Virus record (IMG/VR): IMGVR_UViG_3300029448_000264
Coordinates: 1 to 30,046 of that record
Source of the DNA: a virus
Length of the DNA stretch: 30,046 nt
Direction: 5' to 3' (one strand)
Position numbers and translations under genes: made by a program
Part shown: positions 5,727 through 28,629 of the stretch, one piece after another
Numbering within the stretch: the first letter of the stretch is position 1
Layout: every line of letters starts with the position of its first letter
Notes under the pieces: model-generated
Databases searched by the model: none
Seen by the model: only the letters and a program-made list of their open reading frames with translations
What the model was told of the DNA's origin: nothing

Positions 5727-5896
5727 ACAAAAAAACAGTAAGGGAATTTTATTTACTTGCACTTATAGATTTTCAACATGGGGTGAGTATGCAAGAAATG
5801 AAAGAAACGTTAAGAATGTACGAAGATATAGAAGATTATGAAGCGTGTCAAGGAATACAAAAAGCAATAAAAGAATATGAAAATACAAGAAATTAA
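5723..5896 (+). CDS. Small protein, 57 aa, unknown function
   Basis: TTG 5723 overlaps the methyltransferase TGA (TTGA), and the frame ends TAA at 5894-5896, 20 bases inside the DnaA-like gene. The product is largely helical and acidic (VREFYLLALIDFQHG, then METLRMYEDIEDYE-like repeats). An internal ATG at about residue 23 could be used instead. Overlaps on both sides support translation. Confidence 0.5.
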   Translation: MNKKTVREFYLLALIDFQHGVSMQEMKETLRMYEDIEDYEACQGIQKAIKEYENTRN

Positions 5897-6299
5897 AGAA
5901 CTAGTAGAAAATAAAACCAAACTTAAATTAACTACAAATAGTAGAAAGCAACACTTTGTTTATACAAGGGCGGTTTTGTTTACGTTATGTAAAAAATATA
6001 CTACGGCAACGCTTTACGAAATAGGTAATATGGCGGGTCGTGACCATGCTTCGGTAATACACGGTATAAAACTTTACAACGAAGTGTTAACAAGATACGA
6101 CGACCAATATAAAGAACTATATAACGAAATAGAATTTAAAATAAGAATCAAGTTAAAACTAGCACTTAAACATAAAGACCTAAATTACTACAAACACAAA
6201 TTTAGTAAGATATTAGTAGAACATAGACAAGCGTTACTAGAAAACCGAACCCTATATAATTACATAAATAAGGACTTACAAGAAAAAGTAAATGTATAA
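5877..6299 (+). CDS. DnaA domain IV-like DNA-binding protein
   Basis: 140 residues. Residues about 20-75 match the C-terminal DNA-binding domain of the bacterial initiator DnaA, including the signature GRDHASVIHG at 54-63 and a preceding helix (YTTATLYEIGNMA). The AAA+ ATPase domain is absent. The tail (75-140) is a basic, helical extension. It may bind DnaA boxes to mark a phage origin or to titrate or redirect host initiation. It lies at the end of the early block, just before the packaging genes. Confidence 0.75.
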   Translation: MKIQEIKELVENKTKLKLTTNSRKQHFVYTRAVLFTLCKKYTTATLYEIGNMAGRDHASVIHGIKLYNEVLTRYDDQYKELYNEIEFKIRIKLKLALKHKDLNYYKHKFSKILVEHRQALLENRTLYNYINKDLQEKVNV

Positions 6300-6310: not shown

Positions 6311-6388
6311 ATGTCTGAAGTATTTGCATTTATATATCTTAGTGGTATTGTTACTTTATTAATAGCTTTGTATTTTAACAAAGAATAG
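6311..6388 (+). CDS. Possible single-pass membrane peptide, 25 aa
   Basis: ATG 6311 opens 25 codons ending TAG at 6386-6388. Residues 4-22 are hydrophobic (VFAFIYLSGIVTLLIALYF), flanked by Glu and Lys. It fills the gap between the DnaA-like gene and the packaging promoter. Such a short frame could arise by chance; the membrane-helix composition is the only support. Confidence 0.35.
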   Translation: MSEVFAFIYLSGIVTLLIALYFNKE

Positions 6389-6400
6389 TTTTTTTTATTG
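6377..6400 (+). promoter_or_regulatory. Late-type motif AACAAA-N12-TTATTG upstream of terS
   Basis: AACAAA at 6377-6382, twelve bases, TTATTG at 6395-6400, then TATATAT. It overlaps the end of the 25-codon frame and lies 28 bases before the TerS ATG. Same element and spacing as five others in the structural half. Confidence 0.6.
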
Positions 6401-6405
6401 TATAT

Positions 6406-6432
6406 ATGAATAATCAAGTTTTATCAAGATGA
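6406..6432 (+). CDS. Possible 8-codon leader peptide before terS
   Basis: ATG 6406 starts 5 bases after the TATTG element and encodes MNNQVLSR, ending in TGA that overlaps the TerS start as ATGA. If transcription begins just downstream of the motif, this would be the first start codon, and TerS would be translated by coupling. It is very short and may be chance. Confidence 0.3.
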   Translation: MNNQVLSR

Positions 6433-6659
6433 AACACGGTGGCAAAAGAAACGGTGCGGGACGTAAGTCTAAAGCCGACGAAATAAACCTTATAGAAAAA
6501 CTATCGCCATTAGAGGATTCGGCATTTATGGCATTAAAAGATGGTGTTGAAAAAGGCGATTTTAAATACGTTCAATTATTTTACAATTACTACGCAGGAA
6601 AACCAAGGGAAACAAGGGATATTACAATCAACGAGGACATTCCGTTGTTTGTAGATTAG
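6429..6659 (+). CDS. terS: Terminase small subunit-like protein
   Basis: 76 residues beginning MKHGGKRNGAGRKS, the basic glycine-rich N-terminal signature of many small terminase-type DNA-binding proteins. A helical middle follows (SPLEDSAFMALKDGVEKGDFKYVQLFYNYY). It lies one base before TerL. The usual length is 100-200 residues, so this is a short version; it would recognise phage DNA and deliver it to TerL. Confidence 0.7.
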   Translation: MKHGGKRNGAGRKSKADEINLIEKLSPLEDSAFMALKDGVEKGDFKYVQLFYNYYAGKPRETRDITINEDIPLFVD

Positions 6660-6660
6660 T

Positions 6661-7827
6661 ATGCACGTAAAAAAAACAAAAGCACTTACTACATTACGAC
6701 AACTAAAGAACCGAACACGCATAGTACGTGGTGGCACATCGGCGGGTAAGACTATTTGTATTCTAACTATATTAATAGATTATGCAATTATGTACAAAGG
6801 TAAGGAAGTAAGCGTAGTATCCGAAAGCATACCGCACTTGCGTAGGGGTGCATTAAAGGACTTCTTAGGCATCTTAAAGGGTTTGCATAGGTATAAGGAT
6901 AGTCAATTCAATAAAAGCACCTTAAAATACACCTTTACAAATGGAAGTTATATTGAGTTCTTTAGTACAGACCAACCCGATAAACTAAGAGGTGCTAGGC
7001 GTACCGATATATTTATTAATGAGTGTAACAATATACCCTTCGATTCTTACCAACAATTAGCAATAAGAACATCGGGAAATATATGGTTAGACTATAATCC
7101 TACTAATTTATTTTGGGTAGATAAAGAACTAATAGGGCAACCCGACACGGATTTTGTTACACTTACTTATAAAGACAACGATAGCTTACCACAAAGCATA
7201 GTAAAGGAATTACTAAAAGCAAGGGACAAAGGAAAGACATCTACCTATTGGAAAAATTGGTGCCGTGTTTACCTTGATGGCGAAATTGGAAGTTTAGAGG
7301 GGGTGTGTATACCCGATTGGAAAGAAATAGATACAATACCACAAGACGCAAGGCTGTTAGCTTATGGCATGGACTTTGGATATACCGACCCAACAACTAT
7401 AATTGGATTATATAAATACAACGATGCTTATATATTCGATGAAGTGTTTTATAAATCTAATACCGTATTAAGGGACGTAAGTTTATTTCTAAGACACAAT
7501 AACATAAAAGAAAACATAATAGCAGACCAAGCCGAACCAAAGTCTATTGAAACGTTAAGACGTGATGGACATAATATATACCCATGTACAAAAGGTCGTG
7601 ATAGTGTAAACTTTGGAATTAACCTAATAAATCAAAACGAAATATACATTACAAGTAAAAGCCGAAACCTAAAAAGGGAATTACAAGGTTATGTATGGGC
7701 AAAGGATAAAGATGGTAACACATTACCAAAACCAACGGGCGAACATCCCGATTGCATAGATGCTTGTCGATATGTATTAACCGACACACTAGATAATCAA
7801 CATAGGGGCGAATATCATATTTATTAA
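6661..7827 (+). CDS. terL: Terminase large subunit
   Basis: 388 residues. ATPase domain: Walker A GGTSAGKT at 24-31, an SxxxPHLRRGA segment, and Walker B DIFINE at 116-121. Nuclease domain: GMDFGYTDPTT with D238, then later acidic positions including the HPDCIDACRY segment (D364, D367) near the end. The motor packages DNA into the prohead and cuts it. The portal, usually the next gene, is about 13 kb away here. Confidence 0.93.
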   Translation: MHVKKTKALTTLRQLKNRTRIVRGGTSAGKTICILTILIDYAIMYKGKEVSVVSESIPHLRRGALKDFLGILKGLHRYKDSQFNKSTLKYTFTNGSYIEFFSTDQPDKLRGARRTDIFINECNNIPFDSYQQLAIRTSGNIWLDYNPTNLFWVDKELIGQPDTDFVTLTYKDNDSLPQSIVKELLKARDKGKTSTYWKNWCRVYLDGEIGSLEGVCIPDWKEIDTIPQDARLLAYGMDFGYTDPTTIIGLYKYNDAYIFDEVFYKSNTVLRDVSLFLRHNNIKENIIADQAEPKSIETLRRDGHNIYPCTKGRDSVNFGINLINQNEIYITSKSRNLKRELQGYVWAKDKDGNTLPKPTGEHPDCIDACRYVLTDTLDNQHRGEYHIY

Positions 7828-7844
7828 AAATATTTTGTTTATTA

Positions 7845-7875
7845 TTTGTTAATTAAAAAAAAGGTTATATATTTA
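7845..7875 (+). promoter_or_regulatory. Host-type (Bacteroidota sigma-A) promoter
   Basis: TTTG at 7845-7848, 19 bases, then TATATTTA at 7868-7875, matching TTTG-N19-TAnnTTTG with one mismatch. Start of transcription would be near 7880, about 20 bases before the ATG at 7902. It is unlike the AACAAA motif used around it. Confidence 0.6.
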
Positions 7876-7901
7876 CATCATAAACATTAAAACAATAAAA
7901 A

Positions 7902-8057
7902 ATGCAAAGATTAAAAAATGAATTATCCAACAACATTTACGGAAAAAAATACTTCCAACTTGATGAATATGAACAAGATGGCATCAATGAAGAATTAAAA
8001 GGAATTAGGGAATTGATGAATGAAATGTTTCCAAAAATTACATTATATAATAAATAA
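7902..8057 (+). CDS. Small protein with its own promoter and terminator, 51 aa
   Basis: ATG 7902 opens 51 codons ending TAA at 8055-8057, between a host-type promoter and an intrinsic terminator, so it is a one-gene transcription unit. The product has a basic N-terminus and an acidic helix (DEYEQDGINEELKGIRELMNEMF). No family recognised. Independent expression from a host promoter inside the late region suggests an early host-interaction role, which is inference. Confidence 0.6.
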   Translation: MQRLKNELSNNIYGKKYFQLDEYEQDGINEELKGIRELMNEMFPKITLYNK

Positions 8058-8065
8058 ACTAACAG

Positions 8066-8086
8066 GGGGTAGCAATACCCCTTTTT
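8066..8086 (+). terminator. Intrinsic terminator after the 7902 gene
   Basis: GGGGTA (8066-8071), loop GCAA of the GNRA type (8072-8075), TACCCC (8076-8081), then five T. Confidence 0.85.
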
Positions 8087-8099
8087 AAATACACAAAAC

Positions 8100-8252
8100 A
8101 TGAAAGACAAACACCACCCTTTTGAGAATGAAATATTTACTCATTTTAGAAAAGAACAAGTTGAAATAGATAAAGCCATATCTTTATTAAAAAAGAATGG
8201 ATATATTATTTATGAAAAAGAAAAAACAAAAAATAGTTACACACCTATTTAA
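8100..8252 (+). CDS. Small protein, 50 aa, unknown function
   Basis: ATG 8100 opens 50 codons ending TAA at 8250-8252. The N-terminus holds HHPFENEIFTHFRKE; a helix (VEIDKAISLLKKNGYIIYEKE) follows, ending basic. The ATG is 13 bases after the terminator's T-run, with an A-rich lead. No promoter is obvious, so expression may rely on read-through. Second gene of the small-gene island. Confidence 0.5.
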   Translation: MKDKHHPFENEIFTHFRKEQVEIDKAISLLKKNGYIIYEKEKTKNSYTPI

Positions 8253-8263
8253 AAACAAAAAAC

Positions 8264-8419
8264 ATGAAAAAAGACTTTATAATTATTTGGAAAGATATGA
8301 CCGCAAAGGAAAATCGTAAAACAATACTTAAAGTTGCAAAAGACTTTAGTTTATTTCTAATGGGTATCTACATAGGTATCTTTGTATTTGTTAAAGTATT
8401 ATTTTGGATATGGTATTAA
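8264..8419 (+). CDS. Small membrane protein, 51 aa
   Basis: ATG 8264 opens 51 codons ending TAA at 8417-8419. Residues 1-27 are charged and helical; residues about 28-50 form a strong membrane segment (FSLFLMGIYIGIFVFVKVLF, then WIWY). Cytoplasmic N-terminus with Lys/Arg is likely. It overlaps the next gene by about 10 bases. A role in blocking superinfection or in altering the host membrane is possible but unproven. Confidence 0.55.
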   Translation: MKKDFIIIWKDMTAKENRKTILKVAKDFSLFLMGIYIGIFVFVKVLFWIWY

Positions 8420-8655
8420 ATAAAGAATTTGTACAACCGCATACTAAAAGACAATGGTGTTGGGATAATAACATATTTGTTAATCCTTATGTCATGCAAC
8501 GTAAACGTAAATCCGATATTAAAATAGAAATAGACATTGACGGAAATAAGCAGTTGGGCGAAGAAGTATATAAACAAAGCAAAGCGGGTCAATTAAAATA
8601 CTCGAAAAAAGTACAAGAACTATACGATTATTTGTATATTGCATTAAAGAAATAA
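8410..8655 (+). CDS. Hypothetical protein, 81 aa
   Basis: I chose ATG 8410, which overlaps the preceding stop, over a TTG two codons earlier. The protein begins with aromatic/basic residues (KEFVQPHTKRQWCWDNNIF), has a Lys/Arg patch (MQRKRKSDIKIEIDIDG) and ends in a helix (KVQELYDYLYIALKK). No family recognised. A terminator follows 25 bases after the stop, closing the small-gene island. Confidence 0.6.
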   Translation: MVLNKEFVQPHTKRQWCWDNNIFVNPYVMQRKRKSDIKIEIDIDGNKQLGEEVYKQSKAGQLKYSKKVQELYDYLYIALKK

Positions 8656-8680
8656 TTTTTCGTTTGATTGTTTGGTTAAG

Positions 8681-8706
8681 GGGTAGCAGAGATGTTACCC
8701 TTTTTT
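8681..8706 (+). terminator. Intrinsic terminator closing the small-gene island
   Basis: GGGTAGCA (8681-8688), loop GAGA of the GNRA type (8689-8692), TGTTACCC (8693-8700) with one G-U pair, then six T. It precedes the promoter motif of the tail block. Confidence 0.9.
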
Positions 8707-8710
8707 GTTA

Positions 8711-8734
8711 TACATAATCTAATAAATTTTATTG
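8711..8734 (+). promoter_or_regulatory. Late-type motif (TACATA-N12-TTATTG) before the tail block
   Basis: TACATA (8711-8716, four of six matches to AACAAA), twelve bases, TTATTG (8729-8734), then seven bases and the ATG at 8742. Starts right after a terminator, as expected of a promoter. Confidence 0.5.
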
Positions 8735-8741
8735 TATTAAT

Positions 8742-9404
8742 ATGAAAGTAAACATTTACGTACCCGAAAGCTTATCGGATATTACATTAGAACAATATCA
8801 AAAGTTTGCAAAGTTAAATACGGAAGAAAACAACAACAGTAATTTCCTTTTGCATAAGATGGTAGAGATATTTTGCAACCTTGACTTAAAAGATATTGCA
8901 AGAATCAAATTTACGGACGTACAAGCCATTATAAACGACCTTAACGGGATGTTTAATCAAAAGACACCCCTTATACCCATCTTTAAATTAAAGGGCGTAG
9001 AATACGGCTTTATACCAAAGCTTGACGATATTAGTTTAGGCGAATATATAGACCTTGATAATACTTTGTCCGATTGGGAAACAATGCATAAGGCAATGAG
9101 TGTTCTTTATAGACCGATTACAATACAAAAGAACCATAGGTATCAAATAGAAGATTACACAAACCAAGACAAAGCCGACACGTTTAAAGATATGCCTTTA
9201 GATGTTGTTATGGGAGGTCTTGTTTTTTTTTGGAATTTAAGCAACGAATTACTACAAACTACCCTGAATTATTTGAGCAAAGAGATGGGGGAGAACCTGA
9301 CTACGGAGCAACGGCTAATTTTGGAACAAAGTGGGGTTGGTATCAGTCAATTTACGGAATCGCTAAAGGGGATATTACCAAGTTCGATGAGGTTACCAAA
9401 TTAA
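8742..9404 (+). CDS. Tail assembly chaperone, short (G-like) form
   Basis: 220 residues beginning MKVNIYVPESLSDITLEQYQKF, an opening I associate with tail chaperone-type proteins of Bacteroidota phages. The 0 frame goes on past a nine-T run at 9223-9231 with GGLVFFWNLSNELLQTTLNYL. A second frame (9230-9484) overlaps it by 175 bases and carries a separate conserved-looking domain, the arrangement of lambda G and GT, where the two forms coat the tape measure protein during tail assembly. It heads the tail block. The family call is by layout plus memory; the frame overlap is seen directly. Confidence 0.65.
   Translation: MKVNIYVPESLSDITLEQYQKFAKLNTEENNNSNFLLHKMVEIFCNLDLKDIARIKFTDVQAIINDLNGMFNQKTPLIPIFKLKGVEYGFIPKLDDISLGEYIDLDNTLSDWETMHKAMSVLYRPITIQKNHRYQIEDYTNQDKADTFKDMPLDVVMGGLVFFWNLSNELLQTTLNYLSKEMGENLTTEQRLILEQSGVGISQFTESLKGILPSSMRLPN
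9223..9231 (+). promoter_or_regulatory. Slippery site for -1 ribosomal frameshift
   Basis: Nine T followed by GG; in the 0 frame this reads GTT TTT TTT TGG. A T TTT TTT heptamer (9224-9230) allows both tRNAs to re-pair after a one-base backward slip, moving into the frame that continues to 9484. Confidence 0.6.
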
Positions 9405-9484
9405 ACGTACATAAGTCTTTAATGTTTTTAGCATTTGAAAAAGAAAAGTTAGAACTAGAAAAAAAACTAATTAAAAGGAAATGA
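9230..9484 (+). CDS. Frameshift extension of the tail assembly chaperone (GT-like T domain)
   Basis: An 84-codon frame, -1 relative to the chaperone, with no good start: its first possible codon is a TTG inside the T-run. It encodes YPELFEQRDGGEPDYG, then FGTKWGWYQSIYGIAKGDITKFDEV and a charged helix ending LEKKLIKRK. A slip at 9224-9230 would join 163 residues of the chaperone to these 84, giving 247 residues. The next gene starts 4 bases before its stop, so this frame, not the 0 frame, runs to the gene boundary, which argues that it is translated. Confidence 0.65.
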   Translation: MEFKQRITTNYPELFEQRDGGEPDYGATANFGTKWGWYQSIYGIAKGDITKFDEVTKLNVHKSLMFLAFEKEKLELEKKLIKRK

Positions 9485-9939
9485 AAGGGTTTTACAACGT
9501 AACGGATAAATTAAAAACAAAACTACAAGAAGAACCTTTTGTTAATACGGTTTCTTTCGGTTCAATAGACGATGTTGATTTAGATAAACAAAGCATATTC
9601 CCGCTTGCCCATGTGATAGTAAACAACGCTATCGTAGGAACTAAAACAACAACATTTAATATATCTATTCTTGCAATGGATGTAGTTGATATATCTAACG
9701 ATAAGGTTACCGATGTGTATGTCGGAAACGACAACGAACAAGACGTATTAAACACACAACTAGCTTTACTTACAAGGGTAATAAACGATTTACAAAGGGG
9801 CGACTTATATACGGAAATGTATCAAGTGCAAAGCGATGTAAGTTGTGAACCGTTTGTGGATAGGTTCGAAAACAAGCTAGCAGGTTGGACAGCTTCCTTT
9901 GATGTAGTTATACAAAACGATATGACAATTTGCGACTAA
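9481..9939 (+). CDS. Probable tail terminator/completion protein
   Basis: 152 residues, starting with an ATGA overlap on the frameshift domain. The pattern of LKTKLQEEPFVNTVSFG, IFPLAHVIVNNA, FNISILAMDVVDIS and DNEQDVLNTQLALLTRVINDL is typical of a small tail terminator or minor tail protein in flavobacterial siphoviruses as I remember them. It would cap the tail tube and join it to the head. No membrane or enzyme motifs. Family assignment by memory of similar proteins, not by a catalytic motif. Confidence 0.5.
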   Translation: MKGFYNVTDKLKTKLQEEPFVNTVSFGSIDDVDLDKQSIFPLAHVIVNNAIVGTKTTTFNISILAMDVVDISNDKVTDVYVGNDNEQDVLNTQLALLTRVINDLQRGDLYTEMYQVQSDVSCEPFVDRFENKLAGWTASFDVVIQNDMTICD

Positions 9940-10451
9940 TGACATTTGAACAAACAAAACAAGCTTTAGAAATATTTGCTAAATCCGTTATTAAGCAATC
10001 AAAGGGTAACTTACGTAGACACCGAAAAAACAAGTTTATTACGGGTTCGTCTAGTGGGGACTTAGAGGGAAGCTTGGGATATGATTTAAACGTAAGTCCA
10101 AATAGTTTTAGTTTAGAATTTTATATGGCAGATTACGGTATTTATCAAGACGAAGGTGTTAAGGGTGCGGTAAGCACTTACGATAAAAGTCGCAATAGTA
10201 GATTCCAATATAAAAAGATGCCACTTAATACACAAGCTAAAGGGTCGATACAAAAGTGGATAAAAGAAAAAGGATTAAAAGGAAATATAAATAGCCTTAC
10301 TTATGTTATTGCAAGAAGTATATATAGGAAAGGATTAAGGGCAAGTTTCTTTTTTACTAAACCGTTCGAAGATAATTACTTAAAAATGCCCGATGAACTT
10401 ATAGAAAAGTTTGCATTAGATATTGATAACTTTTTAGATTATACAACGTGA
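9939..10451 (+). CDS. Probable head-tail/neck protein (HK97 gp10-like)
   Basis: 170 residues from ATG 9939, which overlaps the previous stop (TAATG); a TTG three codons upstream is less likely. The basic N-terminus (KGNLRRHRKNK) and the YMADYGIYQDEGVKG segment recall HK97 gp10-type completion proteins, which have a similar DYGxxxxxG segment. The end is helical (FEDNYLKMPDELIEKFALDIDNFL). Context between two tail proteins agrees. Confidence 0.5.
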   Translation: MTFEQTKQALEIFAKSVIKQSKGNLRRHRKNKFITGSSSGDLEGSLGYDLNVSPNSFSLEFYMADYGIYQDEGVKGAVSTYDKSRNSRFQYKKMPLNTQAKGSIQKWIKEKGLKGNINSLTYVIARSIYRKGLRASFFFTKPFEDNYLKMPDELIEKFALDIDNFLDYTT

Positions 10452-10996
10452 TACGAGCAAGAAGCCCTTTTTTTATAGAACATGAAGAGTCGTCAGCACC
10501 TACGGTACTACCAAGGTTTACTTGTCACGATACTTCTATAACGGGATTGTCGATTGCAGCAAACGGAACTATAACAAACCCATCGGTAAGCGTTGGAACA
10601 TTACATAGCGTAGAACCAACAAGCTTTGGTACGGTAAGCACCGCAACTATAAGAAACGTGTTGGTTTATGTAACATATGATTCAAGCAACTTTAGACCAC
10701 CAACCGATTCAAGTAATCAAATAGCTTGCCCTGTTCAATTTACACAACCTGCGACAACGGTAGCAGCATCACAAAAGAAATTTAGAGTAACAAACAATAG
10801 CACCACCCAAACGGCTTTATTACAATATGTAGCGTTTAATGGTAGTGTTCAAATTAATCACACTATGCAACCTTTGGAAACCGTTGATATATGTGTTGCC
10901 CCTTTTGATTCGGAAACCGCAGGTTATCCAACGGTCATTGGGGATGCTACATATTTCGATATGTTAGAATATTGCACAACAGATACACTTAGTTAA
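10448..10996 (+). CDS. Structural protein with Ig-like beta domain
   Basis: 182 residues from GTG 10448, overlapping the previous stop (GTGA). The N-terminus MIRARSPFFIEHE is a signature I associate with a family of flavobacterial phage tail proteins. Residues about 25-105 form a beta-rich domain (ITGLSIAANGTITNPSVSVGT ... FTQPATT) that recurs twice in the gene at 16932. The rest (108-182) is also beta-rich (FRVTNNSTTQTALLQYVAFNG). Probably a surface-exposed tail or virion-decorating protein. Confidence 0.55.
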   Translation: MIRARSPFFIEHEESSAPTVLPRFTCHDTSITGLSIAANGTITNPSVSVGTLHSVEPTSFGTVSTATIRNVLVYVTYDSSNFRPPTDSSNQIACPVQFTQPATTVAASQKKFRVTNNSTTQTALLQYVAFNGSVQINHTMQPLETVDICVAPFDSETAGYPTVIGDATYFDMLEYCTTDTLS

Positions 10997-10998
10997 TT

Positions 10999-11049
10999 AT
11001 GAGAATATACGCAAGAAGTCCATTTTTTTTACAATTTAATAGCACTTAA
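10999..11049 (+). CDS. 16-codon frame repeating the ARSPFF N-terminal signature
   Basis: Encodes MRIYARSPFFLQFNST. Its ARSPFF and the underlying DNA (GCAAGAAG.CC.TTTTTTTA) repeat the start of the previous gene. Slipping in the eight-T run does not join it to the gene at 11052, since both other frames meet stops. It may be a remnant of an N-terminal module split from the next gene, or a real micro-peptide. Confidence 0.35.
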   Translation: MRIYARSPFFLQFNST

Positions 11050-11051
11050 TT

Positions 11052-12041
11052 ATGCCCGTATTAGATAGAGCCGAATTACAATTATATATTTACGATGGAA
11101 CGTCGGGGGGTTACGTAGATAGCGACCTTAAATATACATTATCAAAGTCAAGAATTTCATCGCAAGACAATATCCTATTTGAGATAAGCGAACTTGTAAG
11201 GGATTATATTGACCAAACTTTTAACAATGACTATTTAAGTAAGACTAAATGGGTATCCTCAATCACAAGATTATACGATTCGGATGGTACGGAATTTGCT
11301 ACGGGTAGTCCCGTTACAAATCACTATTTAGCTTTAGATGGGTATGGATATTTTGAAGATGGTATAAACCCGCAACTATCCGATAACCTATTAATGAGTA
11401 ATACACGTATTTACTTACCCGAAAACACGGCGGGTAAATTACCGATTCTTGCAGCGGGTGTTGGTAAGGTTATAATAGATAGTTCAACAACACAAGTTAC
11501 CGATAATGGAAATTCAAATCAAAAAATACAATACTTAACAATTCCCGCTAATAGTAGCACAATACTTGTTTACGATACAGATGACGCTACTTTACTTGCA
11601 ACGGTAAATGTTGAAAACGTATGCGAACCCAAATTTACACCCTATAAGGTTACTTTCGTAAATAAGCACGGGGCTTACCAAGATGTGTATATGTTTAAAA
11701 AGAGTGTTGAGAACATGAATGTAAGCGACGAAGTTTATAAAGCTAATATTATAAATACATCTTCACTTACCTACGCAACATATAAAGGGCAACAAGAAAG
11801 ATACAATGTAAGTGCAACTAAATCTTTACAAATGAATACGGGGTTTGTGAATGAGGACTTTAACCAAGCTATTGAAGAACTTTTACTTTCCGAAAACGTT
11901 TGGATTAGATGGGAAGGTAAAACACTACCCGTCCTTGTTAAGACTAAAGACATGACTTACAAAACTTCATTAAACGATAAATTAATAAACCATACGTTAC
12001 AGTTTGAATTTGCATTTAGCAAGATTAACAACATTAAATAA
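11052..12041 (+). CDS. Tail structural protein, 329 aa
   Basis: Starts MPVLDRAELQLYIYDGTSGG and contains FEISELVRDYIDQTF, a combination I recall from tail proteins of Bacteroidota phages. Mostly beta strands, with a middle section (TIPANSSTILVYDTDDATLLATV) like a small beta sandwich and a C-terminal part (EDFNQAIEELLLSENVWIRWEGKTLPVLVKTKDM) that recalls baseplate or distal-tail proteins. It is directly followed by the 713-residue tail protein (TAATG overlap) and likely works with it at the tail tip. Confidence 0.55.
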   Translation: MPVLDRAELQLYIYDGTSGGYVDSDLKYTLSKSRISSQDNILFEISELVRDYIDQTFNNDYLSKTKWVSSITRLYDSDGTEFATGSPVTNHYLALDGYGYFEDGINPQLSDNLLMSNTRIYLPENTAGKLPILAAGVGKVIIDSSTTQVTDNGNSNQKIQYLTIPANSSTILVYDTDDATLLATVNVENVCEPKFTPYKVTFVNKHGAYQDVYMFKKSVENMNVSDEVYKANIINTSSLTYATYKGQQERYNVSATKSLQMNTGFVNEDFNQAIEELLLSENVWIRWEGKTLPVLVKTKDMTYKTSLNDKLINHTLQFEFAFSKINNIK

Positions 12042-14182: not shown

Positions 14183-14334
14183 TAGAAAATATATTAAATT
14201 TATTAGAGATAGCAAAAAGAACTAAACAAACGGGGGAATTTACATCCATAGCATTAGGCAAAAACAAATTACCCAATAGTTTAAAGGAAGCGTATCACAT
14301 ATTTAAGCAAGAGTTATGGCAAGAAAAGAAGTAG
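14179..14334 (+). CDS. Small helical protein overlapping tape measure start, 51 aa
   Basis: ATG 14179 overlaps the previous stop (ATGA); the frame ends TAG at 14332-14334, 19 bases inside the tape measure gene. The product is helical (IENILNLLEIAKRTKQTGEF ... LKEAYHIFKQELWQEKK). Overlap on both sides supports translation. Function unknown; possibly a tail assembly partner. Confidence 0.5.
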   Translation: MIENILNLLEIAKRTKQTGEFTSIALGKNKLPNSLKEAYHIFKQELWQEKK

Positions 14335-15866: not shown

Positions 15867-15890
15867 AACAAAAAGTAAAAATTAATATTG
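15867..15890 (+). promoter_or_regulatory. Late-type motif AACAAA-N12-ATATTG before the protease gene
   Basis: AACAAA (15867-15872), twelve bases, ATATTG (15885-15890), then TTATAAT and the ATG at 15898, again seven bases after the element. Confidence 0.65.
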
Positions 15891-15897
15891 TTATAAT

Positions 15898-16935
15898 ATG
15901 AATATAGTAGAACTTGTTATAGACGAAGATGAGGACATTTCGGGAATCGAAGCAATTAGCGTTGTTGAAAACCCTGCCATCGAAGAAGATTTTATTGCAT
16001 TAAAAAACCAAGAGTTTAAACTTGCAGAAGTAGATAAGGAAAAGCGTATCCTAATGGGCGCTGCTTTAGTTCCTAACAAACCTATTTATAGACGTAGTGG
16101 CGAATCGGAATATTATATATACTTTTCAAAAGACACGGTACGTAAAGCAAGTGAATTGTTTTTTATAAATGGTAATCAAAATAATTCTACATTAGAACAC
16201 AACATACCACTAACGGGAATGTCGGCGGTTGAAAGTTGGATAGTAGAAAGTGAACAAGATAAAAGTCGTATGTACGATTTAAATGTGCCTATGGGTACTT
16301 GGATGGTTTCAATGAAAGTATTAAACGACGATATTTGGAAAAAAGTCAAAGACGGTGAACTAAAAGGCTTTTCTATTGAAGGATATTTTGCGGATAAGTT
16401 AGAAAGACCACAAGACAAGTCTATAAAAGACGACCTTGCAAAAATAGAAGAAGAAGAAGCGGAATACTTATTAAAAGAAGTACGTGCTATTATAAAAAAA
16501 GACAAAAGGGCGAAAGGCGATAAAAGGATTGAAATGGAATCTTATTCCGATTATCCCGATGCGGTTTCTAGTAACGCTAAGAAAGGAATTGAACTAAACA
16601 AAAAAGTAAACAATAAATGTGCAACACAAGTTGGCAAAGTACGAGCATCACAATTAGCACAAGGCAAACCAATAAGTGTTGAAACTATAAAAAGAATGTT
16701 TAGTTACTTATCAAGGGCGGGTGAATACTACGACGAGGGTAACAAGGAAGCTTGTGGAACCATATCTTACTTATTATGGGGTGGTAAAGCTGGACTTAGA
16801 TGGTCGGGTGCAAAACTTAAAGAACTTGACTTGTTAGAAGCTAGTCTTAAAAAACCATGTTATGCGGGTTATGAAATGATAGGGTTTAAAATGAAAAACG
16901 GTAAACGAGTACCTAATTGCGTGCCAATTAAATGA
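15898..16935 (+). CDS. XkdF-like prohead protease with C-terminal extension
   Basis: 345 residues. The N-terminal part (DISGIEAISVVENPAIEEDFIAL, then MGAALVPNKPIYR) matches XkdF/peptidase S78_2 phage head proteases. Candidate catalytic residues are H101 (STLEHNIPL) and S159 (KGFSIEGYF). Residues about 215-345 are an extra region: SDYPDAVSSNAKKGIELN, CATQVGKVRASQLAQG, ISYLLWGGKAG, then a tail KMKNGKRVPNCVPIK. Such extensions are common in phages of this group; their role is unknown. It should trim scaffold and capsid proteins. It begins the head block. Confidence 0.8.
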   Translation: MNIVELVIDEDEDISGIEAISVVENPAIEEDFIALKNQEFKLAEVDKEKRILMGAALVPNKPIYRRSGESEYYIYFSKDTVRKASELFFINGNQNNSTLEHNIPLTGMSAVESWIVESEQDKSRMYDLNVPMGTWMVSMKVLNDDIWKKVKDGELKGFSIEGYFADKLERPQDKSIKDDLAKIEEEEAEYLLKEVRAIIKKDKRAKGDKRIEMESYSDYPDAVSSNAKKGIELNKKVNNKCATQVGKVRASQLAQGKPISVETIKRMFSYLSRAGEYYDEGNKEACGTISYLLWGGKAGLRWSGAKLKELDLLEASLKKPCYAGYEMIGFKMKNGKRVPNCVPIK

Positions 16936-18143
16936 GGGATTACAAAGATAGATATGCGGTTCCCCAAGACGATAGTCGGGGTTGCTTATGTTGGGATAGT
17001 AATACTTATTCTAGGGAGTGTTGCGATGACGATTACCATGCACAAGGTATTGGTAATATAACGGGTCTAGCGTTAAGTCAAAGTTTAGTAACTATTGCAA
17101 GTTTAAGTGTTTCACAAGGTGGGGGTGTTTCAACGCCAACCGCAAACTATAAAGGTGCTGACTTAGGCACGGTTACGGTTACACCAACAACATTTGCACC
17201 CGTAGTAACGGACACACCTAGGTCTATAACATCTAGTTTAGTAGTACCCGAAAGTGTTGTTGTAAATTCGGAAGAGGTTAAGTTTTCTAATAAAGGCGAT
17301 ACGGTAAGTAAAACCGAAACAATCACACAACCCGCTAATGTGTCGGTCGCCCTTTCGTGTTCGGATATTACCTTTACGGGTTTTGCGGTTTCACAAGCGG
17401 GTGTAATTACACAACCAACAATAGATATAGGAACTACATCAAGCACAACACCATTAAGCTTTGCTTTAGTAAGTACCGAAACAACTAGAACATTAAATGT
17501 AAATATAACCGTGCCATCGGGTTACACAAATGCGGGTGCAACATTAGCTTGTACAACAACCGCAACACAACCGATTGCAACATTATCAAACCCCGTTACA
17601 ACCAACCCATATAAGTATCTATTTACGGGTTACCCTACGGGAATCGTTATTTATAGATTTGCTTATAATACTGCGGGAGATTTCATAGACATAAAAGGAA
17701 TAAAAGGCGAATTAGGGCAATCGTCGGGTATAACTATTTCATCTTTTAGTAAACCCGAAATAGTAGACGGAAACACAAGCGGTTTAACTATGACGGAAAC
17801 CGAAGATGCATCTTTAGCTTTAGCGGGTGCGGTAATGGCTAATAGTGGAACCGATATACAATACTTTTCTAGTTCATTATTTACAACACAACAAACGGGT
17901 ACGCCTAATGTAAGCACGGTTTCTTATACTAACAACGCAAATAACGTTGCAAGCAATTACGGATTATATGATTCAACTAATAGCATTGGCATAGGCGTTT
18001 ATACAAATACACTTGCAAGCATACCCGTTAGTGATGCGACTTTACTTAATCAAGCATTAGCCGACGGATACTATACGGGATACAACAATCCAAAGCAAGT
18101 AAGAATTGAAGATGGTGTAATACAAGAAGTATTAGACATTTAA
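16932..18143 (+). CDS. Structural protein with two Ig-like beta repeats and cysteine-rich head
   Basis: 403 residues, ATGA overlap with the protease gene. The N-terminus contains GCLCWDSNTYSRECC (Cys at 18, 20, 30, 31), a possible metal or disulfide knot that I associate with flavobacterial phage virion proteins. Two repeats follow, about 44-138 and 139-220, each with a TG.A.SQ start and a TQPA/TQPI end. The C-terminal 180 residues are beta-rich. The repeat also occurs in the gene at 10448. Position before the scaffold suggests a virion surface protein. Confidence 0.55.
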   Translation: MRDYKDRYAVPQDDSRGCLCWDSNTYSRECCDDDYHAQGIGNITGLALSQSLVTIASLSVSQGGGVSTPTANYKGADLGTVTVTPTTFAPVVTDTPRSITSSLVVPESVVVNSEEVKFSNKGDTVSKTETITQPANVSVALSCSDITFTGFAVSQAGVITQPTIDIGTTSSTTPLSFALVSTETTRTLNVNITVPSGYTNAGATLACTTTATQPIATLSNPVTTNPYKYLFTGYPTGIVIYRFAYNTAGDFIDIKGIKGELGQSSGITISSFSKPEIVDGNTSGLTMTETEDASLALAGAVMANSGTDIQYFSSSLFTTQQTGTPNVSTVSYTNNANNVASNYGLYDSTNSIGIGVYTNTLASIPVSDATLLNQALADGYYTGYNNPKQVRIEDGVIQEVLDI

Positions 18144-18149
18144 AAATAT

Positions 18150-18173
18150 AACAAACGATATTAATAATTATTG
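18150..18173 (+). promoter_or_regulatory. Late-type motif AACAAA-N12-TTATTG before scaffold and capsid genes
   Basis: AACAAA (18150-18155), twelve bases, TTATTG (18168-18173), then TATATAT. Here no ATG follows at seven bases; the scaffold ATG is at 18194, leaving a short leader. This copy shows the motif does not need an adjacent start codon. Confidence 0.65.
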
Positions 18174-18193
18174 TATATATATAAATTAAATTT

Positions 18194-18784
18194 ATGAAAG
18201 CGACAGATATGTTAAACAAAGTAAAAGAACTTGTTGGGGTGGAAGCATCCGAAGAAGTAAAATTAGCACAAGCGACTTTGGAGAACGGTGCTGTTATAGA
18301 AAGTGAGGATTTCGCTGCTGGTAGTGAAGTGTTTATTGTAACAGACGACGAAAAGGTGGCACTACCTGTTGGCGAGTATACTTTAGAGGATGGCGAAACT
18401 CTTGTAGTTGAAGAAGAAGGCATTATTGCATCAATCGGAAAACAAGAAGAAGCACCCGCTGAAGAAGAAGCGTCAAAGGAAGAAAATCTTGAAGAAGAAG
18501 AAATGGCTTACGCTACAAAAGAAGAACTTGCCGAGGTTAAAACTATGATTGAAGAAATCAAGGCGATGATTGAAAAGAAAGAAGAAATGTCGGAAGAAGT
18601 TCAAGAAGAAGTAAAAGAAGACGTTAAGGAAGAACTTTCAAAGGTTGAGGAAAAAGTAGAACTTGAAAAAGTAACACACAATCCCGAAGCTGAACCAAAA
18701 AAAGAAATGAAATTATACGGACAGAAAAGACCTGAAACAACAATGGATAGGGTATTTTCTAAAATTGCTAATATTAAAAAATAA
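18194..18784 (+). CDS. Capsid scaffold-like protein
   Basis: 196 residues. The first 90 form a beta-rich acidic domain (LAQATLENGAVIESEDFAAG ... VGEYTLEDGETLVVEEEG); residues about 90-165 are an extremely Glu-rich coiled coil (EEIKAMIEKKEEMSEEVQEE); the C-terminus is basic (RVFSKIANIKK), as in scaffolds that dock onto capsid protein. It directly precedes the major capsid gene by 7 bases. Expected to be removed by the protease. Confidence 0.75.
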   Translation: MKATDMLNKVKELVGVEASEEVKLAQATLENGAVIESEDFAAGSEVFIVTDDEKVALPVGEYTLEDGETLVVEEEGIIASIGKQEEAPAEEEASKEENLEEEEMAYATKEELAEVKTMIEEIKAMIEKKEEMSEEVQEEVKEDVKEELSKVEEKVELEKVTHNPEAEPKKEMKLYGQKRPETTMDRVFSKIANIKK

Positions 18785-18791
18785 ATAAAAA

Positions 18792-19745
18792 ATGGCTACT
18801 ACAACAAGTATTACAAGCACATACGCTGGCGAATTTGCGGGGGAATACATTTCCGCAGCTTTACTTAGCGGTGCAACTATTGACAACGGTGGGATAACTG
18901 TAAAACCTAACGTTAAATTTAAAGAAGTAATTAAAAAGATTGCAACGGACGGAATCGTGAAGGATGCCACCTGTGATTTTTCGGCTACTTCTACAATCAC
19001 GCTTACTGAAAAAATATTACAACCTGAACTTCAACAAGTCAATTTGCAATTGTGCAAAAAAGATTTTGTGTCAGATTGGGAAGCAATTCAAATGGGAATG
19101 TCGGCTCACCATGACTTACCATCAAGCTTTAGCGATTTCCTTATAGGACACGTTGCTGCAAAGGTTGCACAAAAAACCGAACAAAGCATTTGGGACGGAA
19201 ATACAAGTAACAATGGACAGTTTGACGGTTTATCAAAACTAGTATCTTTGGATGCTGCTTTACCATCGGGTCAAGAAGTTGCGGGTACTACGGTAGATTC
19301 ATCAAACGTAATTGCACAACTTGGTTCAATCGTTGATGCGGTTCCATCCGCACTTTACGGAAGTGAAGATTTATTTATCTACGTTTCGCAAAACATTGCA
19401 AGAGCCTATGTGAGAGCATTAGGAGGATTTGGTGCAAGTGGTTTAGGTGCTGCGGGTACAAACGCACAAGGAACACAATGGTGGAATAACGGAAGCTTAT
19501 CATTTGATGGCGTAAAGATATTTGTCGCTAATGGTCTTGCTGACAATAAAGCAATAGCTGCTGAAAAATCAAACTTATTCTTTGGAACGGGTCTACTAGC
19601 TGACCACAACGAGGTTAAAGTTTTGGATATGTCAGACCTTGACGGTTCGGACAACGTAAGAGTTGTGATGAGATTTAGTGCTGGAGTACAATATGGGATT
19701 ATCGAGGATATAACTACCTACGGTATCACAAACTCCGCTAACTAA
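18792..19745 (+). CDS. Major capsid protein
   Basis: 317 residues in the usual place after the scaffold and before a strong terminator. It contains an acidic/hydrophobic helix region (DFLIGHVAAKVAQKTEQSIWDG), the P-domain-like IYVSQNIARAYVRALGG, WWNNGSLSFDGVKIFVANG and MRFSAGVQYGIIEDITTYG, which is like HK97-fold capsid proteins of Bacteroidota phages. The terminator 22 bases downstream would let capsid protein be made from a short, abundant mRNA. Confidence 0.8.
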   Translation: MATTTSITSTYAGEFAGEYISAALLSGATIDNGGITVKPNVKFKEVIKKIATDGIVKDATCDFSATSTITLTEKILQPELQQVNLQLCKKDFVSDWEAIQMGMSAHHDLPSSFSDFLIGHVAAKVAQKTEQSIWDGNTSNNGQFDGLSKLVSLDAALPSGQEVAGTTVDSSNVIAQLGSIVDAVPSALYGSEDLFIYVSQNIARAYVRALGGFGASGLGAAGTNAQGTQWWNNGSLSFDGVKIFVANGLADNKAIAAEKSNLFFGTGLLADHNEVKVLDMSDLDGSDNVRVVMRFSAGVQYGIIEDITTYGITNSAN

Positions 19746-19767
19746 TAATTAATTAAATAACATAAAG

Positions 19768-19801
19768 GGGTGGGTGGTTTATTATCTACCTACCCTTTTT
19801 T
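19768..19801 (+). terminator. Intrinsic terminator after the capsid gene
   Basis: Ten-pair stem GGGTGGGTGG (19768-19777) with CTACCTACCC (19786-19795), including two G-U pairs, 8-base loop, then six T. Confidence 0.9.
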
Positions 19802-19814
19802 AATATAAAAAAAG

Positions 19815-20366
19815 ATGGCGTGTAACTTAACAGCGGGTAGAAAAGAACCATGTAAGGACGTAGTTGGAGGAATTAGAAAAGTCTATTTTACGGACTTTGG
19901 TGGATACGGAACGGTAACACAATCTAACGACGACGAGATTACTGACATGAGTGGTACTTTTACTGCCTTTGAATATGAACTAAAAGGGACAAGTAGCTTT
20001 GAGCAAACTATCACTTCATCAAGGGAAAATGGAACAACTTTCTTTGAACAAACTTTAAATATTACACTTAAAAAACTAACTAAAGAAGACAACAAAGAAT
20101 TGAAACTTCTCGCTTATGGAAGACCACACGTTGCAGTTGAAGATTACAACGGTAATGTCTTTGTTATGGGATTAGAACATGGAGCGGATGTTTCAGGCGG
20201 TACTATTGTGACGGGGTCAGGACTTGGAGAACTTTCAGGTTATACCTTAACGCTAACATCACAAGAAGTGTTGCCCGCAAACTTTGTATCAGCACCAACC
20301 GCTGCCAATCCATTTGGCGGTATGTCAAGTGCAACGGTAACAGTGACGGAGGGAACTAATTCGTAA
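19815..20366 (+). CDS. Probable major tail tube protein
   Basis: 183 residues, starting 13 bases after the terminator T-run. Sequence ACNLTAGRKEPCKDVVGG opens a beta-rich protein with FEYELKGTSSFEQTITSSRENGTTFFEQTLNITLKKL, a strand pattern like tail tube subunits, and a conserved-looking DYNGNVFVMGLEHGADVSGG. Flanked by terminators on both sides, so it is expressed either by read-through or from an unseen promoter. Could instead be a head decoration protein. Confidence 0.55.
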   Translation: MACNLTAGRKEPCKDVVGGIRKVYFTDFGGYGTVTQSNDDEITDMSGTFTAFEYELKGTSSFEQTITSSRENGTTFFEQTLNITLKKLTKEDNKELKLLAYGRPHVAVEDYNGNVFVMGLEHGADVSGGTIVTGSGLGELSGYTLTLTSQEVLPANFVSAPTAANPFGGMSSATVTVTEGTNS

Positions 20367-20390
20367 TTAGTAATGTTGATTGATTAGGAA

Positions 20391-20416
20391 GGGTGGCATT
20401 TGCTGCCCTTTTTTTT
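20391..20416 (+). terminator. Intrinsic terminator after the tail-tube-like gene
   Basis: GGGTGGC (20391-20397), loop ATTT, GCTGCCC (20402-20408) with two G-U pairs, then eight T. Confidence 0.9.
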
Positions 20417-20427
20417 GCTTTATAAAT

Positions 20428-20451
20428 AACAAATTTTAAGTTTTCTTATTG
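20428..20451 (+). promoter_or_regulatory. Late-type motif AACAAA-N12-TTATTG before the portal operon
   Basis: AACAAA (20428-20433), twelve bases, TTATTG (20446-20451), seven bases, ATG at 20459. A host-type match (TTTG 20414-20417, 19 bases, TAAGTTTT 20437-20444) overlaps it, so which element is active cannot be settled by eye. Confidence 0.6.
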
Positions 20452-20458
20452 TATATAT

Positions 20459-20800
20459 ATGACAATATTACAAGAAAGTGCGTCGGCACAAAACTTGGAT
20501 TTTATCCCAAGAAGTTTTACAAGCGGAAACACTTATAACGTTACGATAGTAAACGAACAAACTAATACTGAAATTTACAATCAAGACGTTACATCTATTA
20601 GCGAAAACTTATATTACAATAGACTAAATGCTATCTTTGGCGTAAAGCAAGATAACTTTTACATGGTTACGATTAAATCGGGTACTAATGTAATATTTAA
20701 GGACAAGATATTTTGCACAAATCAAACTATTGCCGATTACACGATTAACAATAGTCAATATACGGAACAAAGTTCTACAAATGAATTTATATTTATATAA
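20459..20800 (+). CDS. Small beta-rich structural protein, 113 aa
   Basis: First gene of the portal operon; its ATG is 7 bases after the TATTG element, implying a leaderless or nearly leaderless mRNA. The protein (FIPRSFTSGNTYNVTIVNEQTNTEIYNQDVTSI ... FYMVTIKSGTNVIFKDKIFC) looks like a single beta sandwich. The ending overlaps the portal start (TAATG). Likely a minor virion component; family not recognised with certainty. Confidence 0.55.
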   Translation: MTILQESASAQNLDFIPRSFTSGNTYNVTIVNEQTNTEIYNQDVTSISENLYYNRLNAIFGVKQDNFYMVTIKSGTNVIFKDKIFCTNQTIADYTINNSQYTEQSSTNEFIFI

Positions 20801-22704
20801 TGGATAACTTACATATAGTTAACTTATCGTCTTATAACAGACCTAAAATCAAAGAAGACAAAAAGCGTGATTGGGTAAACTACGGTGACGACAACAATTT
20901 TTATAGTTACTTAATAGACCTTTACATTGAATCGACAACTAACAACGCAATTATTAATGGTGTAAGTCAAATGATTTACGGTAAGGGACTAGATGCTTTA
21001 GATAGTTCAACAAAAACAAACGAATACGCAGCACTTAGGGGTATATTTAACGATTCTTGTCTTAGAAAAATAAGTTTTGATTTAAAATTACTAGGAGAAG
21101 CTAGTTTCCAAGTGCTTTACAAAGATGCTAGGGTTGCTAAAGCCGAACACTTCCCACGACAAACATTAAGGGCGGAAAAAACAAACGAAGATGGTAAAAT
21201 AGAAGCTTACTATTATTTTCATGATTGGTCAAAAATAAAACCAAAAGACAAACCATTACGTATCGCAGCGTTTGGATATGGTAACGGTAGCGAACCCGAA
21301 ATTAAAATAGTAAAAAGGTATTTATCGGGTTACGACTATTATTGCCCACCCGACTACATGGGGGGTATTGCCTATGCGGAATTAGAAAGCGAAGTGGCGG
21401 ATTACTTAATTAACGATGTTCAAAATGGATTTAGTGGTACCAAAGTAGTAAACTTTAACAACGGAGTACCTGACCGAGAGAAACAACTACAAATTAAATC
21501 CGATGTAATGCGTAAGCTTACGGGTTCAAGGGGCGAAAAAGTAATTATTGCTTTTAATAATAACGCTGAAAGCAAAACAACGGTCGACGATATACCGCTA
21601 ACCGATGCCCCACAACATTACGAATACTTATCAAATGAATGTATTGGTAAGTTAATGGTAGCACATAGGATTACATCGCCTTTACTATTAGGTATTAGGG
21701 ATAGCAATAATGGACTTGGTAATAATGCGGACGAAATAAAAACCGCTTCCTTACTATTCCACAACACAACTATAAGACCATACCAAGATTTAATCATTGA
21801 CGCAATGGACGACATTTTGGCGGTAAACGGTATTGCATTAAAACTTTATTTTAAGACCCTACAACCGCTTGAATTTATTGAAACCGACAATGCTATAACT
21901 AACGAAGCGAGGGAGGAAGAAACGGGCGTTAAAATGGCTTCACAAGTAATAAATAACGAAACCGCAATAATAGACGATAGACTAGCTTATTCAACACAAG
22001 AAAAAGCAGAAGAAATGGCTAAAGATTTAGGTTGTAAAGGTTATCACACCCACGACTTAGATGGTAGGACTTGGTATATGCCTTGTGAAGAACACAAGTT
22101 ATCTAAACAAGCACCCGAATTTGACGATAACAAGATGTTTGATTTGTTAGATGAATTTGGCGAAGATGAAAATTTAGACGAATGGGAACTTGTTGACGAA
22201 CGTCAAGTGGATTATGAACAAGAAGACGCATTGGATAAAATGATAGGGTTGGCAAGCACGGGAAGTGCAAGGCCAAAAGCGGGTAGTGAACAAGATGGCG
22301 AAAATAAAGATGGCGTGCAATTTAAAGTAAGATACCAATATGCCCCTTTAAAAACACAATCTAATAGCAGGGAGTTTTGTAAAAAAATGGTAAGTGCTAA
22401 AAAGATTTACCGTAAAGAGGATATAATGCAAATGAGCCAATTAGCCGTAAATGCGGGTTGGGGATTAAGTGGTGCTGACACCTACGATATATGGTTATAT
22501 AAAGGCGGAGGTGCTTGTCATCACTTTTGGATGCGTAAGACGTATAAGGCGAAAGCCGAGGGGATTAAACCTGATGTTGGAAACCCCAATGCTGAAGTAA
22601 GTGTAAACCAAGCAAGAAAAGACGGTTTTAAACCCGAAACAAACGACAAAAAAGTGGCTATGCGACCAAAGGATATGCCAAATCAAGGATTCGTAAACAA
22701 ATAA
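20800..22704 (+). CDS. Portal protein with long C-terminal extension
   Basis: 634 residues. Residues 1-395 have portal features: YGDDNNFYSYLIDLYIESTTNNAIINGVSQMIYGKGL, an internal GEASFQVLY strand, and the helical stem/crown region around SNECIGKLMVAHRITSPLLLGI. The remaining 235 residues are not part of a usual portal: a possible metal site GCKGYHTHDLDGRTWYMPCEEH (C-x3-H-x-H-x10-C-x2-H, from about 408), an acidic linker, and SREFCKKMVSAKKIYRKEDI to GGGACHHFWMRKTY (about 521-575). I associate these modules with XkdF-type proteins of related phages. Confidence 0.78.
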   Translation: MDNLHIVNLSSYNRPKIKEDKKRDWVNYGDDNNFYSYLIDLYIESTTNNAIINGVSQMIYGKGLDALDSSTKTNEYAALRGIFNDSCLRKISFDLKLLGEASFQVLYKDARVAKAEHFPRQTLRAEKTNEDGKIEAYYYFHDWSKIKPKDKPLRIAAFGYGNGSEPEIKIVKRYLSGYDYYCPPDYMGGIAYAELESEVADYLINDVQNGFSGTKVVNFNNGVPDREKQLQIKSDVMRKLTGSRGEKVIIAFNNNAESKTTVDDIPLTDAPQHYEYLSNECIGKLMVAHRITSPLLLGIRDSNNGLGNNADEIKTASLLFHNTTIRPYQDLIIDAMDDILAVNGIALKLYFKTLQPLEFIETDNAITNEAREEETGVKMASQVINNETAIIDDRLAYSTQEKAEEMAKDLGCKGYHTHDLDGRTWYMPCEEHKLSKQAPEFDDNKMFDLLDEFGEDENLDEWELVDERQVDYEQEDALDKMIGLASTGSARPKAGSEQDGENKDGVQFKVRYQYAPLKTQSNSREFCKKMVSAKKIYRKEDIMQMSQLAVNAGWGLSGADTYDIWLYKGGGACHHFWMRKTYKAKAEGIKPDVGNPNAEVSVNQARKDGFKPETNDKKVAMRPKDMPNQGFVNK

Positions 22705-22707
22705 CAA

Positions 22708-23211
22708 ATGGCTGAAGGATTATTTATTACACGAAAAGATTTAGTTAAGTTTACTTCCGTAAATGGGAACGTAGATAGTGACAAGTTTTTGCAATACATA
22801 AAGATTGCACAAGATATACACGTAAGAAACTATTTAGGTTCAGACTTATTTAATAAGATACAAGACGATATAGAAGCAAGTACCTTGGCGGGAGATTACC
22901 TTACACTTGTTACGGATTACGTAAAACCTATGATTATACACTGGGCAATGGTTGAGTATTTACCTTTTGCAGCTTATACGATAGCAAACAAAGGGGTGTT
23001 TAAACATGGTAGCGAAAACGCTTCTAATGTAGAAAAAGAAGAAGTTGATTTTTTAATAGAAAAAGAACGGGATATTGCACAATATTATACGGATAGATTT
23101 ATAGATTATATGTCTTTCAACGCTAGTAGTAAGTACCCCGAATATTATAGTAATTCAAACGAAGATGTATACCCTGACAAAAACGCAAATTTTGAAGGAT
23201 GGGTTTTGTAA
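22708..23211 (+). CDS. Head-tail connector protein (DUF6712-like)
   Basis: 167 residues, 3 bases after the portal stop. Largely helical with DSDKFLQYIKIAQDIHVRNYLGSDLFNKIQDDI and DYVKPMIIHWAMVEYLPFAAYTIANKG, a pattern of the head-tail connector (adaptor) proteins that bind beneath the portal ring. A tail of charged and aromatic residues follows. Position right after portal agrees. Confidence 0.65.
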   Translation: MAEGLFITRKDLVKFTSVNGNVDSDKFLQYIKIAQDIHVRNYLGSDLFNKIQDDIEASTLAGDYLTLVTDYVKPMIIHWAMVEYLPFAAYTIANKGVFKHGSENASNVEKEEVDFLIEKERDIAQYYTDRFIDYMSFNASSKYPEYYSNSNEDVYPDKNANFEGWVL

Positions 23212-23303
23212 GAAACGACTATAAACCAAAAGAAGTAAACATAGAAAGGTTAAAACAATATTTGCAAAAAGCATATATAACAAAAACCAAAAAAAAGTAT
23301 TGA
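23199..23303 (+). CDS. Small basic protein, 34 aa
   Basis: ATG 23199 overlaps the connector gene by 13 bases and ends TGA at 23301-23303, inside the next promoter motif. The product is basic and helical (MGFVRNDYKPKEVNIERLKQ ... TKTKKKY). Coupled position suggests it is real; function unknown. Confidence 0.45.
   Translation: MGFVRNDYKPKEVNIERLKQYLQKAYITKTKKKY
23279..23302 (+). promoter_or_regulatory. Late-type motif AACAAA-N12-GTATTG before the fibre genes
   Basis: AACAAA (23279-23284), twelve bases, GTATTG (23297-23302), then ATATAAT and the ATG at 23310, seven bases after the element. Confidence 0.65.
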
Positions 23304-23309
23304 TATAAT

Positions 23310-28597: not shown

Positions 28598-28629
28598 CTT
28601 GAAATTGTCTAAAAAAAAAACTACCTTTG
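28598..28629 (+). promoter_or_regulatory. Early host-type promoter
   Basis: CTTG at 28598-28601, 20 bases, then TACCTTTG at 28622-28629, a full match to TAnnTTTG. Transcription would start near 28635 and lead into the gene at 28673. The 91-base gap also holds a short A/T hairpin without a T-run. Confidence 0.7.

Follow-up and report, generated by a model that had tools for sequence, protein, structure and literature searches.

A putative phage-encoded ECF-type sigma factor and its predicted late promoters in a phage of marine Bacteroidota

The IMG/VR virus record IMGVR_UViG_3300029448_000264, analysed here over its whole length of 30,046 nt and referred to as the window, comes from a phage whose hosts are marine Bacteroidota and contains six copies of a two-part element, AACAAA-N13-TATTG or a close variant. 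The question raised by this locus is what the element does and which protein reads it. A sequence-only reading, in which the element was written AACAAA-N12-NTATTG, had proposed a phage-specific promoter class for late genes. We consider it highly probable (roughly 90%) that the six copies are late promoters of the extracytoplasmic function (ECF) type, read by the host core polymerase together with a sigma factor of the phage's own, a reading that includes an early-to-late switch and leaderless transcript starts.

All six sites were found where they had been proposed, five as exact matches (6377, 15867, 18150, 20428 and 23279, all on the + strand, with none on the − strand) and one, at 8711, as a TACATA variant, and the spacer is 13 bp in every copy. 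In 1,000 sequences generated with a third-order Markov model the exact element occurred 0.136 times on average and at most twice, compared with five times in the window; composition-matched random sequence does not reproduce it. With the spacer set to lengths from 5 to 29 other than 13, the + strand of the window gave no exact match and the − strand one (N16). Neither box resembles the host promoter (TTTG / TAnnTTTG), as had been noted, and the −7 box of the Bacteroidota primary sigma, TAnnTTTG, occurs in none of the six; scans for generic sigma-70 promoters returned the same numbers in the window as in shuffled sequences. The genomic context is also as first described: only the first genes of gene groups carry the element, the early block of the window has no copy, and two copies lie just behind terminator-like hairpins, such sites being overall no commoner in the window than in shuffles.

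The element is kept at the same places, and with the same 13-bp spacing, in related phages. Related viral contigs supplied 221 loci, with some overlap among them, in which the exact element with this spacer was found 137 times in forward and once in reverse orientation; other spacers gave mostly 2–10 forward matches (19 at N18). Orthologues were mapped for 48 genes of the window, and the element was counted at no more than one mismatch within 70 bp upstream. It precedes 39 of 57 orthologues of the gene at 6429, 28 of 55 at 15898, 18 of 33 at 18194, 23 of 39 at 20459 and 10 of 25 at 23310. Orthologues of the gene at 8742 have the AACAAA form in 7 of 57 cases and the TACATA form in most of the remainder; most carry TACATA, TACAAA or TACAGA followed by N13-TATTG, usually 7 nt from the ATG. 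At each of the remaining 42 genes of the window only 0 to 2 orthologues had the element, and controls with shifted spacers were near zero. When 68 distinct copies from the clade of the window were compared, the information lay in the AACAAA and TATTR boxes and the flank of the −10 box, with most of the spacer varying. The assignment of the six elements to a phage-specific class of putative late promoters is supported by their conservation in position, spacing and gene context, by the lack of copies in the early block and by the host-type promoter of that block.

The proposed recogniser is encoded in the early block by the open reading frame (ORF) at 1524–2069, which matches the PHROG sigma-factor family (E = 6.6e-5). 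Pfam searches of 28 homologues found Sigma70_r4_2 in 15 and Sigma70_r2 in 12 (best E = 1.1e-4); the window protein on its own gives no match to Sigma70_r2, and a YlxM-like helix-turn-helix (PF04297) scores above cut-off in the window protein itself. The region 2 signature E-D-x-V-Q is near-invariant among the homologues. The AlphaFold model features two helical domains and a disordered linker of low confidence, and when it was compared with solved structures using Foldseek, ECF sigmas topped the list, with Mycobacterium tuberculosis SigL first (E = 3.8e-4), followed by RpoE (sigma-E), SigH, AlgU and SigW. Alignment of the sigma profile with a cellular ECF-like sigma by hhalign gave E = 2.7e-11. 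Size and build are those of an ECF (group 4) sigma, as the protein consists only of regions 2 and 4 with a flexible linker and its 181 residues fall within the expected range of about 160–200; homology to sigma region 2 and a helix-turn-helix in region 4 are both present. The ORF very probably encodes a diverged ECF-type sigma factor, predicted to bind core polymerase and to initiate promoter-specific transcription, and this protein is the probable recogniser of the six late promoters. A search of bacterial genomes returned a single weak cellular ECF-like relative among the matches listed, and to the extent of that listing the family looks phage-restricted. A second, more distant sigma homologue was observed in two contigs, as an ORF from about position 3069 of L275 (G033) and as an ORF at one contig end in G003.

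When contigs of 25 kb or more were selected on their terminase or capsid, regardless of sigma, all 13 proved to carry the sigma gene. Promoters were sought in an unbiased dyad search, in which gene-upstream sequences were pooled for each sigma clade and every combination of a 4-mer, a spacer and a 5-mer was tried. Counting loose dyads over whole loci for each sigma residue class was rejected; AT-rich background had swamped both these and the two-mismatch counts, so counting was restricted to gene-upstream regions, which solved the problem. The search returned AACA-N15-TATTG for the window clade (k = 38, expected 1.35, p = 4e-41), CAAA-N15-CGTTA (k = 19, p = 2e-26), AAAC-N15-CGTTA and AAC-N16-AGTTA for other clades, and AACA-N16-CGTTA (k = 11, p = 7e-17) for the clade of the cultured Nonlabens phage P12024L, the p values being uncorrected for the number of combinations tried. 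Single contigs have AAC-N16-CGTTT and AAC-N16-TGTTT. The −10 box varies by sigma clade (TATTR, CGTTA/T, RGTTA, TGTTT) while the AAC-type −35 box is mostly kept. An AAC-containing −35 box about 16 bp from a short −10 box (AAC-N16-TATTG in the window, AAC-N16-CGTTT and AAC-N16/17-CGTTA in sister clades) is the arrangement of bacterial ECF promoters, which the CGT-type −10 boxes of the sister clades also resemble. A sigma tree from which region 2.4 was left out requires 5 changes to account for the four classes, compared with 23.6 for shuffled labels, which shows clustering with descent, not causation.

The −10 box co-varies with two region 2.4 positions that lie three residues apart: TATTR accompanies Q..N, CGTTA/T accompanies D..R, RGTTA accompanies D..K and TGTTT accompanies T..K. 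At these positions D..R is also found in the cellular ECF-like sigma that was aligned to the profile, and two Q..K contigs inside the TATTR clade are exceptions. In sigma-70 the −12 base pair is contacted by residues Q437 and T440 of region 2.4, which are likewise three residues apart. In sigma-L, the specificity at −12/−11 is set by His54 and Asp60 (PMC6372665). Because independent changes are few and exceptions exist, we treat the two-residue code as a hypothesis.

A tblastn search of annotated phages with the window sigma gave no match, and P12024L was therefore found only through a distant member of the clade. Its sigma homologue gp35 (L292, 19989–20468; profile E = 1.1e-7) is deposited as a hypothetical protein with a Sigma-70 region 2 note, and the phage has five AAC-N16/17-CGTTA promoters, every one 7 nt from an ATG. 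We take gp35 to be, very probably, the late sigma factor of P12024L.

Could the late promoters instead be read by a host sigma, either a host ECF sigma or the primary sigma with a phage activator at AACAAA, the phage sigma-like protein acting otherwise? Flavobacteria have several ECF sigmas, one of them with an inferred regulon having a CGT −10 box (PMC9723704), and the early block of the phage uses host-type promoters. However, the −10 box changes along with the phage sigma clade, TATTG does not match the −7 box of the host primary sigma, and phages without the sigma gene are also without the promoters: in seven cultured phages of Bacteroidota, all with a homologous TerL, there was no sigma (whole records searched) and there were no such promoters in a scan that covered the record wholly or nearly so in four and 50–60% of it in three. 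We regard recognition by a host sigma as improbable.

Under recognition by the phage sigma, the host sigma would start early transcription at 28599–28629, and the early transcript would cross the circle junction and yield the phage sigma. This protein would then redirect the host core RNA polymerase to the six late promoters, with AACAAA (TACATA at 8711) as the −35 box, a 13-bp spacer (AAC-N16) and TATTG as the −10 box. Gene order and promoter placement fit an early sigma gene and sigma-dependent promoters used only late, an arrangement of the 7-11 / phiEco32 kind; the timing and the binding of the sigma to the promoters are predicted. The −10 box is counted from −12 in the sigma-L structure (PMC6372665), and transcripts of phage 7-11 start 6–9 bp from the promoter element (PMC8948821). 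With TATTG at −12 to −8, a gap of exactly 7 nt to the ATG would place +1 at its A, and leaderless late mRNAs are predicted; the gap has this length at four of the six window sites and for 44 of the 71 clade copies. The four late mRNAs concerned would thus start at, or 1–2 nt from, the A of the ATG. The sequence-only reading had described a TATA-like heptamer after the second box; the seven nucleotides are indeed the exact interval to the ATG at four sites, but at the other two the gap is 28 nt (6429) and 20 nt (18194), and we read the heptamer as positions −7 to −1, just ahead of a nearly leaderless transcript, in preference to a −10 element of TATA type.

The recurrence of TATTG-N7-ATG would also be expected of a translation-initiation or mRNA leader signal, the more so as Shine-Dalgarno sequences are not used by Bacteroidota. 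Against this, the distance to the ATG ranges from 5 to 59 nt across copies, and from 28 to 53 nt at the terminase, with the spacing inside the element constant at 13 bp, the element is confined to the first genes of groups, and terminator-like hairpins directly precede two copies; it is very unlikely that the element is such a signal and not a promoter. An artefact of chance or composition in AT-rich DNA, with apparent conservation from close kinship, is already refuted: the window has no excess when two mismatches are allowed (47 matches compared with 40.9 in shuffles), but the exact-match statistics, the strand and spacing specificity, the near-zero counts at 42 other genes and a column-wise conservation found only in the boxes, with spacer and flanks varying, all oppose it.

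Several results weigh against late promoters read by a phage sigma. Since the two-mismatch count shows no excess, the case must rest on exact matches and conservation. Foldseek gave low TM-scores (0.3, domain placement), a single-sequence search of solved structures with the window protein returned no sigma factor, and a profile search of these structures matched sigma factors only weakly. Matches to Cas12i and antibodies in the single-sequence search were spurious. Two clades have a TGCA-type −35 box, in some contigs the −10 class was assigned from one or two promoters, and the covariation of promoter and sigma is confounded by common descent, with only about five class changes on the tree. 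The part-length scan of three sigma-less controls belongs with these points.

Table 1. Predicted features of the window.
Feature	Position	Strand	Remarks
Candidate phage ECF-like sigma factor, proposed recogniser	1524–2069	+	GTG start, 181 aa, early block; region 2 ~residues 14–78, flexible linker 79–97, region 4 ~99–165
Late promoter 1, AACAAA-N13-TATTG	6377–6400	+	ATG 6429 starts 28 nt downstream; small-terminase position, preceding TerL 6661–7827
Terminator-like hairpin (intrinsic type)	8678–8703	+	Directly before late promoter 2
Late promoter 2, TACATA-N13-TATTG	8711–8734	+	ATG 8742 after exactly 7 nt
Late promoter 3, AACAAA-N13-TATTG	15867–15890	+	ATG 15898 after exactly 7 nt; XkdF-like protease (PF14550)
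Late promoter 4, AACAAA-N13-TATTG	18150–18173	+	ATG 18194 after 20 nt; structural block
Terminator-like hairpin (intrinsic type)	20386–20413	+	Directly before late promoter 5
Late promoter 5, AACAAA-N13-TATTG	20428–20451	+	ATG 20459 after exactly 7 nt; gene directly precedes portal gene 20800–22704
Late promoter 6, AACAAA-N13-TATTG	23279–23302	+	ATG 23310 after exactly 7 nt
Host-type (Bacteroidota) early promoter, TTG-N20-TACCTTTG	28599–28629	+	Upstream of early block

Downstream of the host-type promoter (Table 1) the early block continues past the circular junction and on to the sigma gene, and the −7 box of this promoter and the GGTGGGTTAGTGGG after it are conserved in most orthologous upstream regions. 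The window has a 77-bp direct terminal repeat (1–77 and 29970–30046) and probably represents a whole genome that is circular or circularly permuted. The last early gene (5877–6299), directly before late promoter 1, encodes a helix-turn-helix protein resembling DnaA domain IV (PF08299, E = 2.5e-12). A weak ParB_N-like gene (4355–5119, E = 0.17) overlaps a gene at 5100–5726 that by eye is DNA methyltransferase-like. In the reverse-complemented contig L289–L290 (G040), recurring GC-rich inverted elements (ACGGGCCC...GGGCCCA) lie upstream of several small genes, found from about position 23386 on, of an otherwise AT-rich phage.

Phage sigmas for late genes with bipartite promoters are known. The late sigma of Salmonella phage 7-11, SaPh711_gp47, has late promoters GTAAtg-(16)-aCTA (PMC8948821, PMC4331800), and the phages described here share with 7-11 a phage sigma with region 4, several copies of a bipartite promoter with a 16-bp spacer before late genes, and early promoters for the host sigma; the starts mapped near the element in 7-11 are here predicted from geometry. 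They differ from 7-11 in host phylum, in genome size (~30–39 kb), in sequence classes (AAC-type −35 with TATTR, CGTTW or RGTTA −10) and in the many promoters that abut the ATG with predicted leaderless starts. Moreover, 7-11 has a feedback promoter, whereas a late-type promoter precedes none of 61 orthologues of the sigma gene. In phiEco32 the sigma factor gp36, with the promoter tAATGTAtA (PMC8948821), likewise reprograms the host polymerase for middle and late genes, but it lacks region 4 homology and uses single-element promoters, in contrast to the two boxes and region-4 domain found here. Bacterial ECF (group 4) sigmas such as M. tuberculosis sigma-L, Escherichia coli sigma-E and Bacillus subtilis sigma-W have the same regions 2 and 4 with a flexible linker; unlike them, the present family is phage-borne, no anti-sigma was seen, and the window clade combines Q..N with a TATTR −10 box where the CGTT clades and the compared cellular homologue have D..R. 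For its early block the phage relies on the primary-sigma promoter of Bacteroidota. Set against the known systems, these phages stand apart by their host phylum and sequence classes, by the leaderless starts predicted for them and by the breadth of the promoter–sigma series. No earlier description in flavophages was found in a literature search that took in few subscription journals, and as far as the papers searched show, the switch to late genes in these phages seems not to have been described.

A broader proposal, which we advance tentatively and at somewhat less than even odds, is that a phage-restricted, diversifying ECF-like sigma family drives late expression in Bacteroidota phages via leaderless mRNAs, its specificity being re-set at two region 2.4 positions one helical turn apart, to give a natural series of sigma–promoter pairs. 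Sequence allows the switch protein to be read alongside its promoters in some 50 near-complete genomes; the promoters form at least four classes, which follow the sigma clades, and this bears out the published expectation of more unlike sigma–promoter pairs in phages (PMC8948821). Leaderless late mRNAs are predicted in a setting where such mRNAs are scarce, at only ~5.5% in Flavobacterium psychrophilum (PMC9723704). The evolution of promoter specificity in ECF-like sigmas becomes directly testable, and the series offers candidate orthogonal sigma–promoter pairs for Bacteroidota.

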